Positions 166 through 6,777 of a stretch of DNA of 64,000 nucleotides are shown here, piece after piece. Each line of letters starts with the position of its first letter. Position 1 is the stretch's first letter. This DNA is from Nitratiruptor sp. YY08-10. GTDB taxonomy: Bacteria > Campylobacterota > Campylobacteria > Campylobacterales > Nitratiruptoraceae. Made by a program: the position numbers and the translations under genes. The notes beneath the pieces were generated by a model that saw only the letters and a program-made list of their open reading frames with translations, was not told the origin of the DNA and ran no database searches. The stretch covers positions 992,001 through 1,056,000 of the forward strand of contig NZ_AP023057.1 in the NCBI RefSeq assembly GCF_016629565.1. The letters run 5' to 3'.

Positions 166-1890
166 TTAAATTGAGCAAGAGGTGTTCACTTTGAATTCAC
201 CTAGGCTTTTCCCCTTTGTATCTACGATATGAACTGCACATGCAATACATGGATCAAAGCTGTGAATGGTTCTTAAAATCTCCAACGGTTCCTCAGGTTT
301 TGCCACTTTTGTACCGATTAAGCTTGCTTCATAAGCTCCCATTCTATTTTTATAGTCTCTTGGCGCAGCATTCCAAGTGGATGGCACAACCGCTTGATAG
401 TTTTCCACTTTTCCATCTTTGATTTTTACCCAGTGACCAAGTGCACCCCTTGGAGCTTCTTCAAGACCATACCCTTTAGCATCTTTACTTACATAATCAA
501 AATCAAATTCTGTCCATGTTGAAAGGTCTCCTGCTGCAACATTGGCTGCAAGCTCATCAACCCAATTAAACATAATATCTGCCATCATTTCAGTCTCAAT
601 CGCTCTTGCTGCAGTTCGACCAACGGTTGAGAAGAGCACTTTTGCAGGAAGATTTGCATTTTTTAAGAATTTATTGACATATTCGCTGATTCTTTTATCT
701 CCTTTTACATATCCTACAACCATTCTTGCAAGCGGACCAACCTCCACCCTTGTATCATCATATATAGGTGATTTTATCCAAGAATATTTTCCTTTGGTAT
801 CAAGATAGGCAATTCCTTTTTCCTTTTTACCAAATCCTGTATAGTTTGGAATAGTTTGCCCATCAAAAGGATGAAGCGGCTTATCGCCATTATACCAAGA
901 GTGCGTCACATCTTCAGCCACTTTTTCTTGATCAAACTCTTGATATTTTCCATCAATCACAAGTCCACTTGGGAAAAGAAGCTCAGATTTATAAAATCCA
1001 TTGTCTTGTAGTCTAAATCCTCCATAGACAAGATAGTTCTTAAGTCCTGCTCCTGTTCCATCGAGTGCTTCATCACCATACATCGTTCCAGCCATATAGA
1101 TATCAGGAAGGTATGCGCCTTTGATAAATCGAGTGAAACCTTTAAGCAAGTCTTTATACAGAGCAATTCGCGCAGGATTTTGAATATCTTGTACACATGT
1201 TACCCCACCAACTACAATACTTTGTGGGTGTGGGTTTTTTCCACCAAAAATAGCCATCATCTTTGCAGCGTCTCTTTGCAAATCAAGAGCTTGCAGATAA
1301 TGCGTAACTGCCAAGAGATTTTGCTCAGGAGTTAGTTTATAGTGGGGATTGCCCCAGTATCCTTTGGCAAAAAGACCTAGCCGACCCTGTTTGACAAATT
1401 TTTTGAGTCGATCTTGCACCTCCTTAAACTTTGCACTATCTGCAACATATGGAGTGGTTCCAGCAGCATTTGCCCATTTTTTTGCTTCATTTACTGTCTT
1501 GGTTGGATCAGCTTCCAATGCTTTTGTGATATCGACCCAGTCAAGGGCATGAAGATGGTAAAAGTGCACCACATGGTCATGTAGATAGAGTGCCCCTTGG
1601 ATAAGGTTTCTTACAAGCCTCGCGTTTTTTGGAATGGTCACACCAAAAGCGTGCTCTACTGCCTCGATACTTCTTTGATAATGCGTTCCTGTACATACCC
1701 CGCATATTCGCATAGCAAGTAAACCACAGTCTCTTGGATCGCGCCCTTTTAAAATCTCTTCAATTCCTCGAAACATTGTTGAAGAGCTATAAGCGTCTAC
1801 TATTGTATTATTCTCATTGATAACAGCTTCAATACGCAAGTGCCCTTCTATTCTTGTTATAGGATCAACGACAATATGTTTAGTACCCAT
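166..1890 (-). CDS. hydB: [NiFe]-hydrogenase large subunit, respiratory uptake type
   Basis: 574 residues. It carries the active-site subunit of a group 1 membrane-bound hydrogenase, which oxidises H2 in the periplasm for respiration. Both nickel-binding motifs are intact: RICGVC (Cys63, Cys66) near the N-terminus, and DPCIACAVH (Cys548, Cys551, His554) near the C-terminus. A tail of 20 residues follows His554; in this family it is removed by a maturation protease after NiFe insertion. There is no signal peptide, as expected, because the folded large subunit is carried out together with the Tat-targeted small subunit. The ATG overlaps the hydA stop by one base (TAATG), so translation is coupled. 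Family assignment is secure. Confidence 0.97.
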   Translation of the reverse strand: MGTKHIVVDPITRIEGHLRIEAVINENNTIVDAYSSSTMFRGIEEILKGRDPRDCGLLAMRICGVCTGTHYQRSIEAVEHAFGVTIPKNARLVRNLIQGALYLHDHVVHFYHLHALDWVDITKALEADPTKTVNEAKKWANAAGTTPYVADSAKFKEVQDRLKKFVKQGRLGLFAKGYWGNPHYKLTPEQNLLAVTHYLQALDLQRDAAKMMAIFGGKNPHPQSIVVGGVTCVQDIQNPARIALYKDLLKGFTRFIKGAYLPDIYMAGTMYGDEALDGTGAGLKNYLVYGGFRLQDNGFYKSELLFPSGLVIDGKYQEFDQEKVAEDVTHSWYNGDKPLHPFDGQTIPNYTGFGKKEKGIAYLDTKGKYSWIKSPIYDDTRVEVGPLARMVVGYVKGDKRISEYVNKFLKNANLPAKVLFSTVGRTAARAIETEMMADIMFNWVDELAANVAAGDLSTWTEFDFDYVSKDAKGYGLEEAPRGALGHWVKIKDGKVENYQAVVPSTWNAAPRDYKNRMGAYEASLIGTKVAKPEEPLEILRTIHSFDPCIACAVHIVDTKGKSLGEFKVNTSCSI

Positions 1891-3116
1891 TACTCTTCTC
1901 CTTCACTTTTCTTACCTGCAATTGCACTTGCTGCCGCATGAATTGCAATGCCCACACCAGCAGCAGTCAAAAGACCCAGTCCAAACTCATCCACACTCTT
2001 TTCAACTCCCCCACCAGGAGCCATTTTTATATTTGCGTCTGCCATTGGTCGTTCGTATGCATATTTGTCCCAAAATCCAGGCTCGCTGCACCCTATACAT
2101 CCATGTCCTGAACCAATTGGCCAGTTTACGGATTCGTTATAGCGAACAATCGAACAGTTGTTGAATGTCATAGGACCTTTACATCCCATTTTGTAAAGGC
2201 AGAAGTTGTTTTTCGCACCTTCATCGCCCCACTCTTCGACGAACTCTCCTGCATCAAAGTGCGCCCTTCTTTCACAGTTATCGTGGATTCTGTATCCAAA
2301 AGCAAATTTTGGTCGAAGCAGTGAATCGAGCTCTGGAATTTGACCAGTAAGTACATAGTGTAAGATTACTCCGACCATATTTGCAGGATTTGCTGGACAT
2401 GCTGGAATATTGATGATTGGTTTGTCATTAACGATATCCATGACGCCCACTGCACCGGTTGGATTTGGAGCAGCTGCTGGAACACCACCAAAAGTTGCAC
2501 ATGTTCCAACTGCAACTATCGCTGCTGCATCTTTGGCTACTCTTTTTAGGTGCTCTTCAAAAGTTTCACCACTTGCCCCAATCGTACACCACTCCCTACC
2601 AGGACCTACCGGAATAGCGCCTTCAACAAAAAGAAGATATTTTCCTTTAAAATGTTCCATCGCATCTTCAAGCTGCGCTTCTGCTTGATGTCCAGCTGCA
2701 GCCATAAGTGTCTCTTGAAATTCTAGTGAGATAATTTCTAGAATGATATCGTCCACCTTAGGTCCATCACTTCGTATAAAAGCTTCCGAGTTACCGGCAC
2801 AATCTTGCAGTTCTATCCAAATTACAGGTACTCTCGTCATAAGTTCAGCAGCTTCTGCTACAAGAGGGGTAAAAGAGCTAGGAAGCATTAGCATTGCAGT
2901 AGTTGCACTAGCCCATTTTAAAAAATCTCTTCTAGAAACGCCCTCATCTTCCAAAATCTCTTTAATAGAGATTTTTCGAAGTGGCTCAATTTTTTTAAGC
3001 TCTTCAAGTCTTGCTTTGCATTGCTCATAGAGTCTTGCATAGTAGGCTTCACCTCTGTTTGTCTCAACCCGGGCACTCTTAGTTGTAAAGAGCGAGCGAA
3101 GGTGTTCTCTATTCAT
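1890..3116 (-). CDS. hydA: [NiFe]-hydrogenase small subunit with Tat signal
   Basis: 408 residues from the ATG at 3116. That ATG has AAGGAG five bases upstream, whereas the GTG six bases earlier overlaps the ribosome site. The Tat motif SRRDFLKW is followed by a hydrophobic stretch, but the twin arginines sit at residues 62-63, after an unusually long, charged, helical leader. The Fe-S ligands include GTCATFGG, PACPANP, HDNC, CLYKMGC and GCIGC, fitting the proximal, distal and medial clusters. The first proximal motif reads DCAGN, where the family's usual second Cys (CxxC) is Asn. A C-terminal hydrophobic segment (LGLLTAAGVGIAIHAAASA) should anchor it next to the cytochrome b. It is first in hydABC. 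Confidence 0.96.
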   Translation of the reverse strand: MNREHLRSLFTTKSARVETNRGEAYYARLYEQCKARLEELKKIEPLRKISIKEILEDEGVSRRDFLKWASATTAMLMLPSSFTPLVAEAAELMTRVPVIWIELQDCAGNSEAFIRSDGPKVDDIILEIISLEFQETLMAAAGHQAEAQLEDAMEHFKGKYLLFVEGAIPVGPGREWCTIGASGETFEEHLKRVAKDAAAIVAVGTCATFGGVPAAAPNPTGAVGVMDIVNDKPIINIPACPANPANMVGVILHYVLTGQIPELDSLLRPKFAFGYRIHDNCERRAHFDAGEFVEEWGDEGAKNNFCLYKMGCKGPMTFNNCSIVRYNESVNWPIGSGHGCIGCSEPGFWDKYAYERPMADANIKMAPGGGVEKSVDEFGLGLLTAAGVGIAIHAAASAIAGKKSEGEE

Positions 3117-3130
3117 TATCACTCCTTGAT

Positions 3131-3144
3131 TGAATACTCATTCA
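3131..3144. promoter_or_regulatory. Inverted repeat TGAAT-N4-ATTCA, candidate TetR-type operator of hydABC
   Basis: The 14-bp element TGAATACTCATTCA has perfect 5-bp arms around a 4-base centre. It lies just downstream of the likely -10 box of hydA (3149-3154) and upstream of its ribosome-binding site, where a bound repressor would block transcription start. Size and position suit a TetR dimer, and a TetR-family gene lies 2.1 kb upstream in a hydrogenase operon. The pairing of regulator and site is inference. Confidence 0.45.
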
Positions 3145-3148
3145 TTTA

Positions 3149-3154
3149 ATTGTA
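3149..3154 (-). promoter_or_regulatory. Putative -10 box of the hydABC promoter
   Basis: On the minus strand the hexamer TACAAT sits 33 bases before the hydA ATG, in the AT-rich gap between the upstream sensor-type hydrogenase operon and hydA. No clear -35 box is visible, which is usual in Campylobacterota. Confidence 0.4.
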
Positions 3155-3225
3155 GCGTATTGGACTTATAACAATTTTAAATAATGAGCTGTTCTCTCTC
3201 GATCTTATATAAAAATGGGACCAAT

Positions 3226-4437
3226 TCAGTGCGTTGTACAAACGCTACATATATCAAAGCTTCGAAAAATGAGATTTGCAATCTTTTCATCTGAAGTACC
3301 AATGATTGCTTTTTGTATGACAGAAGGATTTTGGGAAGTTCCATTGGAAAGATTCCACTGAGTGGGAGTAATGATGTTATAGGTTTCAATTTTTCCTTGA
3401 TGGATAGTTGCTTGATGAATCAATGAACCACGAGCTGCTTCGATGCTTATGATTGCTGTACCATCTTGCATTTTGGATTCAACGACACTTGGCTGAGAAA
3501 GATCGATCGTTGCTAAATGATCGATAATTTTTTCTATAAGGAGGGAAACTTCATAAATTCTAGCAATGATTCTTGTAGTGATGCTGTCTTTGAATCTTCT
3601 ATGAAAATAGCGAATAAATGGGTCAGTTTGCTGCATGAGTCTGGCAAGTGGTCCGGTTTCATAATATTTACCGTTGTATGTAACATTTTTTGCATAACTT
3701 CTTTTTTGCTCATTTTCTTCTATGAGTGTGAGCTTTGTCTTTCTTTTTTGTCCATGTAGCAGTTTAATATTTGATACATGAGAGTCTTGGGAAAAGGTAA
3801 TGAAACGATCATGACTCTTCCCAACCAAGAGCAGCTCTTTTTCTTGAAGTGTATGATAGAGTTTTTGCAAATCATTGGTGAGATTGAGGGGATCATGTAA
3901 CTCTCCAATAAGTTGTATGAATTGATCTTTGATCTGTCGAATGAGCGTTTTTGCTTGATAGATTTCAAAAGAGGTAGGATCGCATGTTACTCCTCCAATT
4001 ACGCAATAGGATGAGTGAGGCCACTGCCCGCTAAAGAGTGCTAAAAGTTTGTTGATCGTAATAATAAGATGATGTACTTTTGTAAAATCGTATAGGATAC
4101 CAAGCTCATGAAAAATGACAAGGTAGAACCATTTGATATGATTTTGTATAATTTCGCAAAATCTTGTAATCTCTCTAATTTTTTGGGCTTTTTGAGTGAT
4201 AGTAATTTGAAAAATAGATTCTAAAACCATGGCAGTTGCTTGTAGATGGGCATGTCCGCAAATTCCACAAATTCTAGGATTAATCACAAGTGCATCCCAT
4301 GGATTTCGTCCTCGTAAAATCTCTTCAATTCCTCTATAATGGGGAAAAATGACTTTTACATCAGTAATAATCTTTTTATCTTTTTGGAATTTTAAAAAAG
4401 CTTCACCTTCTATCTTTTCCAAAAGTTCAATTCTCAT
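3226..4437 (-). CDS. Sensor-type / cytoplasmic [NiFe]-hydrogenase large subunit without C-terminal tail
   Basis: 403 residues, much shorter than HydB. The N-terminal motif RICGICGHAH (Cys57, Cys60) and the C-terminal motif DICSVCTTH (Cys397, Cys400, His403) are both present, so the NiFe site can form. The protein stops directly at His403, so there is no tail to cleave. In known families this is typical of H2-sensing hydrogenases (HupV/HoxC) and their relatives. The second motif has Ile where DPCxxC has Pro. It overlaps the upstream small-subunit gene by 11 bases. There is no Tat partner and no cytochrome b, so it should be cytoplasmic. A H2 sensor is the preferred reading; a small cytoplasmic uptake enzyme of group 2 is the alternative. 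Confidence 0.88.
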   Translation of the reverse strand: MRIELLEKIEGEAFLKFQKDKKIITDVKVIFPHYRGIEEILRGRNPWDALVINPRICGICGHAHLQATAMVLESIFQITITQKAQKIREITRFCEIIQNHIKWFYLVIFHELGILYDFTKVHHLIITINKLLALFSGQWPHSSYCVIGGVTCDPTSFEIYQAKTLIRQIKDQFIQLIGELHDPLNLTNDLQKLYHTLQEKELLLVGKSHDRFITFSQDSHVSNIKLLHGQKRKTKLTLIEENEQKRSYAKNVTYNGKYYETGPLARLMQQTDPFIRYFHRRFKDSITTRIIARIYEVSLLIEKIIDHLATIDLSQPSVVESKMQDGTAIISIEAARGSLIHQATIHQGKIETYNIITPTQWNLSNGTSQNPSVIQKAIIGTSDEKIANLIFRSFDICSVCTTH

Positions 4438-5284
4438 CGATGAGCTTTCTGGTAAGTCTTGGAATCTGAAAACTTTTTGCTATACCAGTGATTGTAAGAT
4501 AGGCTCTTTTGGGAACTCCTAAAGGCATATTGGCCGGAATCCCCATATAGGTTTTTGTATGGAAAAGTCCGGTTTTTGGAAAAGTTGGCTCAGTACAACC
4601 AAAACAGGGCGTTCCAGACCTAGTTTTGGAATTTATCTCATTCCATAAGATCCTATTGCAGCTACCGTGTGTAAAAGGAGCTTGGCATCCTTGCTCGTAA
4701 AACAGGCATCCCTCTTTTGTTCCAAAGGATTTTGCATCTACTTTCCATTCAAAATATTCGTTTCTTGTGCAGCCGCTATGGACAGTAAAGGCAAAAATCT
4801 CTTTTGGCCTATGGTATTCATCTAAGGAAAAAGAGTCATTTTCAATTGCAAAAGCGATCCATTCCGGATGAGCCGGGCAGCCTGGAATATTGACGGTTTT
4901 ATTAAAAAAGTGTTCATATAGTTTACTTTTTTTGGTTTTATCAAATAAGACTCCAGTAATTGTTGGGTCAAACTCTTTAAAGACTCCTCCAAATACTGCG
5001 CAGCTTCCTACCGCAACGATTTTTTTTGCTTTTTGTGCCAAATGAAAAAAGAGTTCATAAAGATCTTTATCTCCTTTTTTCCACCCCTGTTTTAAGCCAC
5101 CCTCAACAACTAAAATATCAAAATCGGCTGTATGTAGATCCATAAGTTGCAGTGGTGATGGAAAAAGAGGATGGTACAAGAATTCAAACTGTTGCAGTAG
5201 CGAAGCTAGAGAAGGTAGATTGAGAAATGAGTGGGAGTTGCCGTTGCAGGTAACTCCTTGCAGCCATATTATTTTAGCTTTCAT
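4427..5284 (-). CDS. Sensor-type / cytoplasmic [NiFe]-hydrogenase small subunit, no signal peptide
   Basis: 285 residues. It starts directly with the flavodoxin-like fold (MKAKIIWLQGVTCNGNSHSF) and lacks both the Tat signal and the C-terminal membrane helix of HydA, so it stays in the cytoplasm. Fe-S ligand motifs are visible: GSCAVFGG, PGCPAHP, HSGC, CLFYEQGC, and a final GTPCFGC. As in HydA, the first proximal motif is CNGN rather than CxxC. The ATG overlaps the end of the TetR gene by 11 bases, and the large subunit follows with another 11-base overlap. The tight coupling to a one-component regulator, without any histidine kinase nearby, is unusual for H2-sensing hydrogenases. Confidence 0.9.
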   Translation of the reverse strand: MKAKIIWLQGVTCNGNSHSFLNLPSLASLLQQFEFLYHPLFPSPLQLMDLHTADFDILVVEGGLKQGWKKGDKDLYELFFHLAQKAKKIVAVGSCAVFGGVFKEFDPTITGVLFDKTKKSKLYEHFFNKTVNIPGCPAHPEWIAFAIENDSFSLDEYHRPKEIFAFTVHSGCTRNEYFEWKVDAKSFGTKEGCLFYEQGCQAPFTHGSCNRILWNEINSKTRSGTPCFGCTEPTFPKTGLFHTKTYMGIPANMPLGVPKRAYLTITGIAKSFQIPRLTRKLIDEN

Positions 5285-5870
5285 TTTTTAATGATCGATA
5301 AATATTTTCACTGATTTCTTGCGAATAAAACTCTATATCGTTGGGTAGAAGTCCTTCCCCCATCAAAAAGACCATGCCGCCGAGATATCCCATGAAAAGT
5401 CCAAATGCACTGAAAAAATCTTGATTTCTCAACTCTCCATTACGAACGCCCTCCTCAAAAAAGACCATAATCTCTGTTACAAATGGACTGACGCATATCA
5501 TACCTTCGCATCCATGTTTAAAGACTTCCCGATTGGAAAGATATATGCGTAAGAAATACTCTATAAACTCTGGTCGTTCTTTAGCCGTATGAAAATAGAA
5601 ATCTACGATTTTTCTGATTTTCTCTTTGGAAGTGATCTGCATCATATTGATTTTTCGAATCTCTTCTGCTAAATGTTTGGAAATGTATAATATGAGTTCT
5701 TTTGCCAAAGCGTCTTTTGAATTGAAATAGTTATAGAGATTGCCTACACTCATATGGAGTTCCTTTGCGATATCGGCCATTGTTACTTCAAAAAAGCCCT
5801 CTTTGCTGAAGAGTTTTAAAGCTGTATCCATAATCTGTTTTTTACGATCCTCTTTGTTGATTTTTGCCAA
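5274..5870 (-). CDS. TetR/AcrR-family transcriptional regulator
   Basis: 198 residues. The N-terminal TetR DNA-binding domain is clear (residues about 10-55: QIMDTALKLFSKEGF, then TMADIAKELHMSVGNLYNYF), followed by a helical ligand-binding region of the usual length. The start is TTG, supported by GAGG six bases upstream; this ribosome site overlaps the stop of the methyltransferase gene. It is translated with the two sensor-type hydrogenase genes (11-base overlap). It may control hydABC through the inverted repeat at 3131-3144, with the hydrogenase informing it about H2; that link is inferred from position only. It could equally respond to a small molecule and control the efflux or methylation genes nearby. 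Confidence 0.93.
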   Translation of the reverse strand: MAKINKEDRKKQIMDTALKLFSKEGFFEVTMADIAKELHMSVGNLYNYFNSKDALAKELILYISKHLAEEIRKINMMQITSKEKIRKIVDFYFHTAKERPEFIEYFLRIYLSNREVFKHGCEGMICVSPFVTEIMVFFEEGVRNGELRNQDFFSAFGLFMGYLGGMVFLMGEGLLPNDIEFYSQEISENIYRSLKNES

Positions 5871-5878
5871 TTTTTACC

Positions 5879-6379
5879 TCACTTTTTTCCTACTAATATT
5901 GCTTTCGTTTCATTTTGAGTCAAATTATAATGGATAATTTCAAGTTTACAAAAAAGTTGGCACAGTTCATTCTTTTGGGCAACAAATGCTGGATTCATTG
6001 ATGATTTATAGGTAAAAACCTCACAAATGAAAATCCCATCCTTTTTCAAGGAATCAATAATTTTCTGTGCAATGGATCTATCGAAAAAGTTTGTACATAT
6101 GATGAGATTATAATACTCTTTTTTAAACTCAAATGCATCAATATCTTGACAAAATGCATGAATGTTAGAAAGGTTTTGTAGTTTTTCAATCGCTACTTCT
6201 GATATATCCACTGCATCCACTTCGAAACCGTTTTGTGCCAAAAATTTGGCATTTTGTCCAAGCCCGCAGGCGATATCAAGTGCTTTACCTTTTTTAGCTA
6301 AAGAAAAGAACTGTTGAACATTTTCGTTGATATCGGGCTCTTGCATTGCAAGATATTTTCTGTCCCATTTTCCTTTCAC
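5879..6379 (-). CDS. SAM-dependent methyltransferase, TehB-like class I
   Basis: 166 residues from a GTG at 6379 that overlaps the preceding stop in a GTGA, a typical coupled start. An open frame continues further upstream but there lies inside the previous gene. The SAM motif I LDIACGLGQNAKFLA is clear, followed by the acidic strand VDAVDIS. The overall plan resembles small TehB/UbiE-type methyltransferases. The substrate cannot be told. It lies eight bases before the TetR gene and is probably in the same transcript as the sensor-type hydrogenase. Confidence 0.8.
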   Translation of the reverse strand: MKGKWDRKYLAMQEPDINENVQQFFSLAKKGKALDIACGLGQNAKFLAQNGFEVDAVDISEVAIEKLQNLSNIHAFCQDIDAFEFKKEYYNLIICTNFFDRSIAQKIIDSLKKDGIFICEVFTYKSSMNPAFVAQKNELCQLFCKLEIIHYNLTQNETKAILVGKK

Positions 6380-6777
6380 GATTCGACTCTTTTGAGAAGA
6401 TTTTTGTATCGGTCTACTCCTAAAAAGCTCTTTTCGAGGCGCCATCTGAGAACAAATTCGGCTATTTTTTCTCGTAAGTGCTCATCTACCTGTTCACTCC
6501 TGCCAAAATAGCGCAAATTAACATTTTTGCCGCTTGCTATACCAATAATTTGAATATAACGTTTTGGATGAATAGCTAAAAAACTATCTTCTTGCAAAGA
6601 AAATCCTGTAACATTAATCGCGGAGAAACTAAGCAACGTATCTAGGTTATTGACTTTCTGATCGATTTGTAGCTCTTGAAATAGTGAACGGAGTTTTCGA
6701 CTATTCTCTCGTCTGAGCTTTTCGTAACTCACAAAATTTTCTACGAGTTTATGGAGTCTTTCAATATTGTTGGTCAT
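6376..6777 (-). CDS. Conserved-looking small protein of unknown function
   Basis: 133 residues, not recognised. The N-terminal third is helical and charged (ERLHKLVENFVSYEKLRRENSRKL), the middle contains beta-like stretches (INVTGFSLQEDSFLAIHPKRYIQIIGIASG), and the end is helical and basic. There is no signal peptide or membrane segment. It begins the minus-strand operon that continues into methyltransferase, TetR and the sensor-type hydrogenase, and it is divergent from murA. Its start has AAGG seven bases upstream. Confidence 0.7.
   Translation of the reverse strand: MTNNIERLHKLVENFVSYEKLRRENSRKLRSLFQELQIDQKVNNLDTLLSFSAINVTGFSLQEDSFLAIHPKRYIQIIGIASGKNVNLRYFGRSEQVDEHLREKIAEFVLRWRLEKSFLGVDRYKNLLKRVES

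Follow-up and report, generated by a model that had tools for sequence, protein, structure and literature searches.

Organization of the locus

The stretch of DNA analysed here, referred to below as the window, comprises 64 kb of the Nitratiruptor sp. YY08-10 genome (NZ_AP023057.1, positions 992,001 to 1,056,000). The features discussed are the following, listed in the direction of the minus strand.

5274..5870, minus strand: TetR-family regulator of 198 aa, here named HuaR (PF00440, TetR_N, E=2.3e-15)
5493..5510, minus strand: codons of the invariant cysteines of HuaR (C126, 5493-5495; C121, 5508-5510)
4427..5284, minus strand: hydrogenase small subunit HuaS, without signal peptide (PF01058, Oxidored_q6; PF14720, NiFe_hyd_SSU_C)
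3226..4437, minus strand: [NiFe]-hydrogenase large subunit HuaL, tail-less (PF00374, NiFeSe_Hases)
3131..3144: candidate TetR-type operator before hydA, TGAATACTCATTCA (TGAATGAGTATTCA on the hydA strand), TGAAT-N4-ATTCA
1890..3116, minus strand: hydA, encoding the small subunit of the membrane-bound respiratory hydrogenase, a presumed target (TIGR00391, E=9e-139; TAT signal)
166..1890, minus strand: hydB, encoding the large subunit of the same hydrogenase, likewise a presumed target (NF033181, E=8e-169)

The TetR, small-subunit and large-subunit genes are minus-strand ORFs joined by 11-base overlaps, one at each junction, and the small subunit has no TAT signal; the tail-less, cytoplasmic [NiFe]-hydrogenase coupled to a TetR gene that had been noted is indeed present. 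A gap of 109 bases separates huaL from hydA, whose ATG is at 3116 (a GTG further upstream, at 3122, is a possible alternative). After hydA come hydB, hydC, a maturation protease gene and the hyp genes, the run from hydC onwards lying beyond the window edge. A PF00374 search of the 1.82-Mb genome found HuaL and HydB as its only [NiFe] large subunits. Upstream, 8 bases separate the TetR gene from the end of a gene for a TehB-like methyltransferase (window 5879-6777), so that transcription of the unit seems to start here at a promoter further upstream that does not have the operator.

HuaSL is a group 2 hydrogenase without a C-terminal tail

Membership of group 2 is indicated by the lack of a TAT signal, by invariant CxxC motifs and by the best PDB match, mycobacterial hydrogenase-2 (Huc), which belongs to group 2. 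HuaL ends in SFDICSVCTTH, three residues past the last CxxC, and the corresponding extension of HydB is 23 residues long. Both CxxC motifs are invariant in the 96 orthologues analysed and the last is followed by three residues in every one of them. The CxxCTTH end is like that of the H2 sensor HoxC and unlike the tails of 16-23 residues in HoxG, HydB, group 2a-like enzymes and a diguanylate cyclase-linked enzyme of Ideonella. In the tree, HuaL forms a clade of its own (support 100/100) and HoxC falls with other groups.

The cysteine ligand positions checked in HuaS are invariant in the 96 sequences; position 16 is Asn in most and Cys in 8/96. Regulatory hydrogenases have a narrowed gas channel in which Ile and Phe replace Val and Leu. 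At the corresponding HuaL positions Ile59 is invariant and residue 107 is Thr, Val, Phe or Ser. HuaSL (HupSL) of Campylobacterota has been classified as group 2d, the Aquificae type (PMC12286921, PMC6702916, PMC5357620), and on this literature (PMC12286921, PMC6702916) the YY08-10 enzyme is assigned to group 2d.

HuaR is a TetR protein with an invariant cysteine pair

The assignment of HuaR to the TetR/AcrR family is one on which the PF00440 match (E=2.3e-15), the AF2 model (a TetR fold, pLDDT 87.7) and the Foldseek matches agree. The nearest folds are those of ordinary ligand-binding TetR proteins, including FadR. C121 and C126 are 100% conserved in the 96 orthologues and are not retained in paralogous TetRs; they are located in the low-confidence alpha6-alpha7 loop of the AF2 model. 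Mean identity among orthologues is 66% for the DNA-binding domain, 61% for the C-terminal domain and 73% for residues 100-140, and HuaR is thus better conserved than HuaS (52%) and HuaL (45%). It is unusual for the C-terminal domain of a TetR protein to be conserved to about the same extent as its DNA-binding domain.

Some HuaR paralogues without the cysteine pair adjoin genes of group-4-like hydrogenases (L293:9071-9652 and L296:9541-10125), and in L296 several copies of the HuaR repeat lie close to the hydrogenase genes.

The TetR-hydrogenase unit is conserved in Campylobacterota

Close relatives of HuaS (E below 1e-75) occur in approximately 115 of 397 Campylobacterota genomes. The TetR-small-large gene order is conserved in other Campylobacterota, as anticipated: in 96/96 loci analysed, from about ten families, the same TetR gene is found directly upstream of huaS-huaL. 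A further 80 loci from named assemblies, a set that shares species with the first, have the TetR gene upstream in 77; one locus starts at a contig end, and the two with other genes upstream are from fragmentary genomes that encode the TetR elsewhere. A search with the TetR as query found it in 114 genomes. HuaSL without the TetR was not seen in any of the genomes searched, and the TetR without the hydrogenase was seen only in two, G142 and G347. Taken together, these comparisons strongly support the view that the linkage of TetR and hydrogenase in Campylobacterota is that of a conserved unit and not a local arrangement.

In both G142 (L288:8263-10447) and G347 (L289:9019-9911) huaSL has been lost and the TetR gene and the hydA operator have been kept. 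A reverse ORF occupies the place of huaSL in G142, and the TetR branch of this genome is rather long (0.33). The TetR-Hua-Hyd module is plasmid-borne in Sulfurimonas paralvinellae (L341, NZ_CP041407.1) and Sulfurovum mangrovi (L343, NZ_CP087125.1), with integrase genes nearby, and the H2 oxidation genes plus their regulator may travel as a single mobile unit. On a plasmid of Runella slithyformis (L345:1148-2832) two TetR genes, distantly HuaR-like, precede a group-2a-like hydrogenase; this pairing is possibly of independent origin.

A conserved repeat at hydA promoters

A TGAAT-N4-ATTCA repeat had been noted at the hydABC promoter. It lies exactly at 3131-3144, 15 bases before hydA and centred 21-22 bases ahead of the hydA ATG, and is the sole exact match in the window. 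The genome of 1.82 Mb has six exact copies of TGAATACTCATTCA, and the hydrogenase cluster accounts for two of these. A lone 14-mer proves little, and it is because the repeat is kept across relatives that it goes far beyond chance. The interval between huaL and hydA contains an exact copy of the pattern in 51/86 linked loci, against 0.1 expected from first-order Markov resampling, and a copy with no more than one mismatch in 84/86, against 4.2 expected; the repeat is thus shared by the hydA promoters of Campylobacterota relatives, as the original prediction implied. Spacings of 0 and 8 are also enriched in this interval and other spacings are not, which we attribute to overlapping palindromes in the consensus of the relatives' hydA-promoter site, TGAATGAnTATTCAtt.

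Where hydA is not linked to huaL, the main hydA gene carries the site in 9/9 genomes. This rules out a linkage artefact, in which the site would be kept merely as sequence downstream of huaL. In hydrogenase-less genomes the site is missing from 57/60 hydA promoters, and it is missing in 16/17 such genomes whose hydA is 72-79% identical. The three exceptions among the 60 are G142 and G347, which keep the TetR beside hydA, and G164, a member of the same genus as G347 with neither hydrogenase nor TetR. When the data are pooled, the site is found in 95/97 cases with the TetR versus 1/58 without it (Fisher p=8e-39, a value inflated by shared ancestry). Both failures despite the TetR are in genomes of family f5, by gene content probably Nautiliaceae, several members of which have a weaker variant between -35- and -10-like boxes, as judged by eye. 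Also by eye, the site overlaps the promoter, at the start region in YY08-10 and in the -35/-10 spacer in the f5 genomes; a scan for sigma-70 promoters found no convincing candidate near 3131.

The co-occurrence of TetR and site makes it highly likely that HuaR binds the repeat as its operator, and the proposal that this operator is sited at hydABC is well supported by the same counts.

Predicted targets of HuaR

Exact sites number 87 across all loci: 71 precede hydA, two precede the nik/hyp operon and one precedes the TetR gene. In YY08-10 the nik/hyp operon, which has the order nik/rcnA-hypB-hypD-hypE-hypX-hypA, likely starts 19 bases after a second site (G000:C1:984452-984465). Among the remaining exact and near matches that were inspected in the genome, none is intergenic and in front of a gene start. 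On the 50-kb plasmid of S. paralvinellae the genes for TetR, HuaSL, HydABC and Hyp form a single set with two exact sites, 35 bases before hydA and 33 bases before the hyp operon. Additionally, in genomes of family f7, taken as Arcobacteraceae from genome content, that have two hydA copies (52-55% identical), both copies carry sites. By this distribution HuaR very probably controls hydABC and hyp and not mainly its own operon; autoregulation as the main role of HuaR is rejected on the site positions. Zero-spacer matches upstream of the TetR gene proved to be the coding start of the divergent hypA (MHEYSIV) and were dropped.

YY08-10 has a second TetR gene, convergent to hypA, where the hyp operon ends (L034:2988-3611; G000:C1:977987-978610). 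The gene between hypE and hypA encodes a 577-aa HypX-like protein (L034:3959-5692) with formyl transfer and enoyl-CoA hydratase parts, as judged by eye.

A proposed H2-responsive switch

The unit, its conservation, the operator and the operator's targets are supported by sequence comparison, and a switch can be proposed around them. HuaR would be a dimeric repressor bound to TGAATGAnTATTCA at the hydABC and nickel/hyp promoters; we infer repression and not activation because the operator is at the promoter or start region. HuaSL would be the H2-sensing input, being soluble and without a membrane anchor, an electron-acceptor subunit or a C-terminal maturation tail. In the presence of H2, HuaSL would pass electrons or a conformational change on to HuaR, probably at the invariant Cys121/Cys126, and HuaR would then leave the DNA. 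We put the probability that the genes at 3226-5870 form an H2-responsive regulatory unit, with HuaSL as the input to HuaR, at roughly 0.55.

That H2 would be the signal is suggested by the sensor-like hydrogenase and by one transcriptome, that of A. butzleri hDNRA1. In this strain both hynAB sets are 2.3-6.2-fold up with H2 and huaSL is down, the contrast being one of H2 with acetate in which another variable changes too (PMC12286921). The published expression data conflict, with PMC12286921 for H2-dependent control of the target genes and PMC5357620 against it. In Sulfurospirillum multivorans hydB is constitutive and not induced by H2, and hupL is barely transcribed (PMC5357620). In Sulfurospirillum hDNRA2 hynAB is unchanged, though formate too gave H2 (PMC12286921).

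It had also been claimed that the locus has neither a histidine kinase nor an NtrC-type regulator. This holds for the cluster ORFs, and neither a HoxJ/HupT kinase nor an NtrC-type regulator was found in the ORFs or annotation of the window cluster, L034 or the plasmid cluster. Since the unit encodes no kinase and no electron acceptor, a direct hand-over of the signal is attractive. HuaSL would then define a new H2-sensor class, in which a [NiFe]-hydrogenase signals directly to a TetR repressor, either by electron transfer to the cysteine pair (as disulfide or bound metal cluster) or by contact, and H2 controls transcription with no kinase, second messenger or diffusible ligand in between. We regard this extension as tentative, at clearly less than even odds.

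Alternative explanations

HuaR might instead repress hydABC and hyp as a self-contained regulator, itself sensing a small ligand or the cellular redox state, perhaps via Cys121/Cys126, with HuaSL merely a co-transcribed metabolic enzyme that, for example, supplies the reductive TCA cycle with reduced ferredoxin. The TetR, with both cysteines, and the operator survive without HuaSL in G142 and G347, which indicates that HuaR can have value alone; its fold neighbours such as FadR are consistent with this, and the Aquifex and Nautilia enzymes have been suggested to have the ferredoxin role (PMC2628731, PMC5357620). Mere co-transcription, however, leaves unexplained why HuaSL never occurs without this TetR in the genomes searched. 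The unit is without an electron acceptor gene, and the group 2d enzyme of A. aeolicus is hardly detectable and is thought an unlikely ferredoxin reducer (PMC10052474). We therefore consider a self-contained HuaR with a metabolic HuaSL unlikely, while still a serious competitor to a unit in which HuaSL is the input.

The suggestion made for S. multivorans, that the TetR acts locally as an ordinary repressor of the hupSL/huaSL operon to which it belongs, agrees with the adjacency of the genes and with the lack of hupL expression in that organism (PMC5357620). Against this, the site is exact in just 1/96 TetR promoters and present with no more than one mismatch in 19/96, some of these near-matches being coding artefacts of the divergent hypA start; the sites are instead at hydA and hyp, and local repression is very improbable. 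There is an equally slight chance that HuaSL senses H2 via a HoxJ-like histidine kinase encoded elsewhere, with the TetR as a separate layer. Group 2b sensors do signal in this way (HydDB table, PMC5037454), but the S. paralvinellae plasmid module has no annotated kinase in its cluster and the HuaL clade is separate from HoxC. Finally, a single 14-mer in an AT-rich intergenic stretch might be a chance repeat, a coding feature or a piece of an unrelated element, and shuffles of the window give approximately nine one-mismatch matches, but this reading is refuted by its conservation and its presence/absence pattern among relatives and TetR-less controls.

Relation to known systems

HydDB leaves the role of group 2d between a carbon-fixation reductant and a regulatory function (PMC5037454). 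The Nautilia papers call the enzyme H2-sensing from phylogeny (PMC2628731, PMC10092268), and in S. multivorans the TetR gene upstream of hupSL was noted and read as a hupSL repressor (PMC5357620). No H2 sensor is named in the part consulted of a review of Campylobacterota respiratory regulation (PMC6682613). In the open-access literature we found no report of a general TetR link, the operator or the operator targets. The group 2d enzyme itself is known, and the TetR output for a sensory-type hydrogenase, the predicted operator and its targets appear to be new. For Campylobacterota the TetR link offers a strong, testable answer to the question of group 2d function: with a constant TetR partner and a defined predicted operator and targets, a regulatory role can be tested directly in vent and sediment bacteria that grow in culture. 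Should HuaSL indeed act on HuaR, the signal would pass from H2 to the DNA by a route that needs no kinase, and the pair would make a compact switch responsive to H2.

By the literature, HuaSL is the same enzyme as group 2d hydrogenase III of A. aeolicus (PMC12286921, PMC6702916, PMC5357620). The diguanylate cyclase-linked enzyme of group 2c (Ideonella plasmid, L348) is, like Hua, a putative sensory group 2 hydrogenase with an adjoining signalling gene, but it works with a second messenger and has a 16-residue large-subunit tail, whereas Hua is tail-less and is paired with a DNA-binding protein. FadR of Bacillus has a fold like that of HuaR (Foldseek) at approximately 20% identity, and HuaR adds the invariant cysteine pair and the hydrogenase partner. 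The FadR operator is of the TGAATGA type, similar to the HuaR repeat. The nearest functional parallel is HoxBC with HoxJ/HoxA, of group 2b (Cupriavidus necator pHG1). Like HuaSL, HoxBC is a soluble, two-subunit group 2 enzyme without the large-subunit extension, and its genes lie beside a transcription regulator and a respiratory hydrogenase cluster. HuaL, however, has approximately 390-450 aa compared with 485 in HoxC and is in its own clade, and the output of HoxBC is a histidine kinase and an NtrC-type regulator, in contrast with the TetR protein that is the gene partner of Hua.
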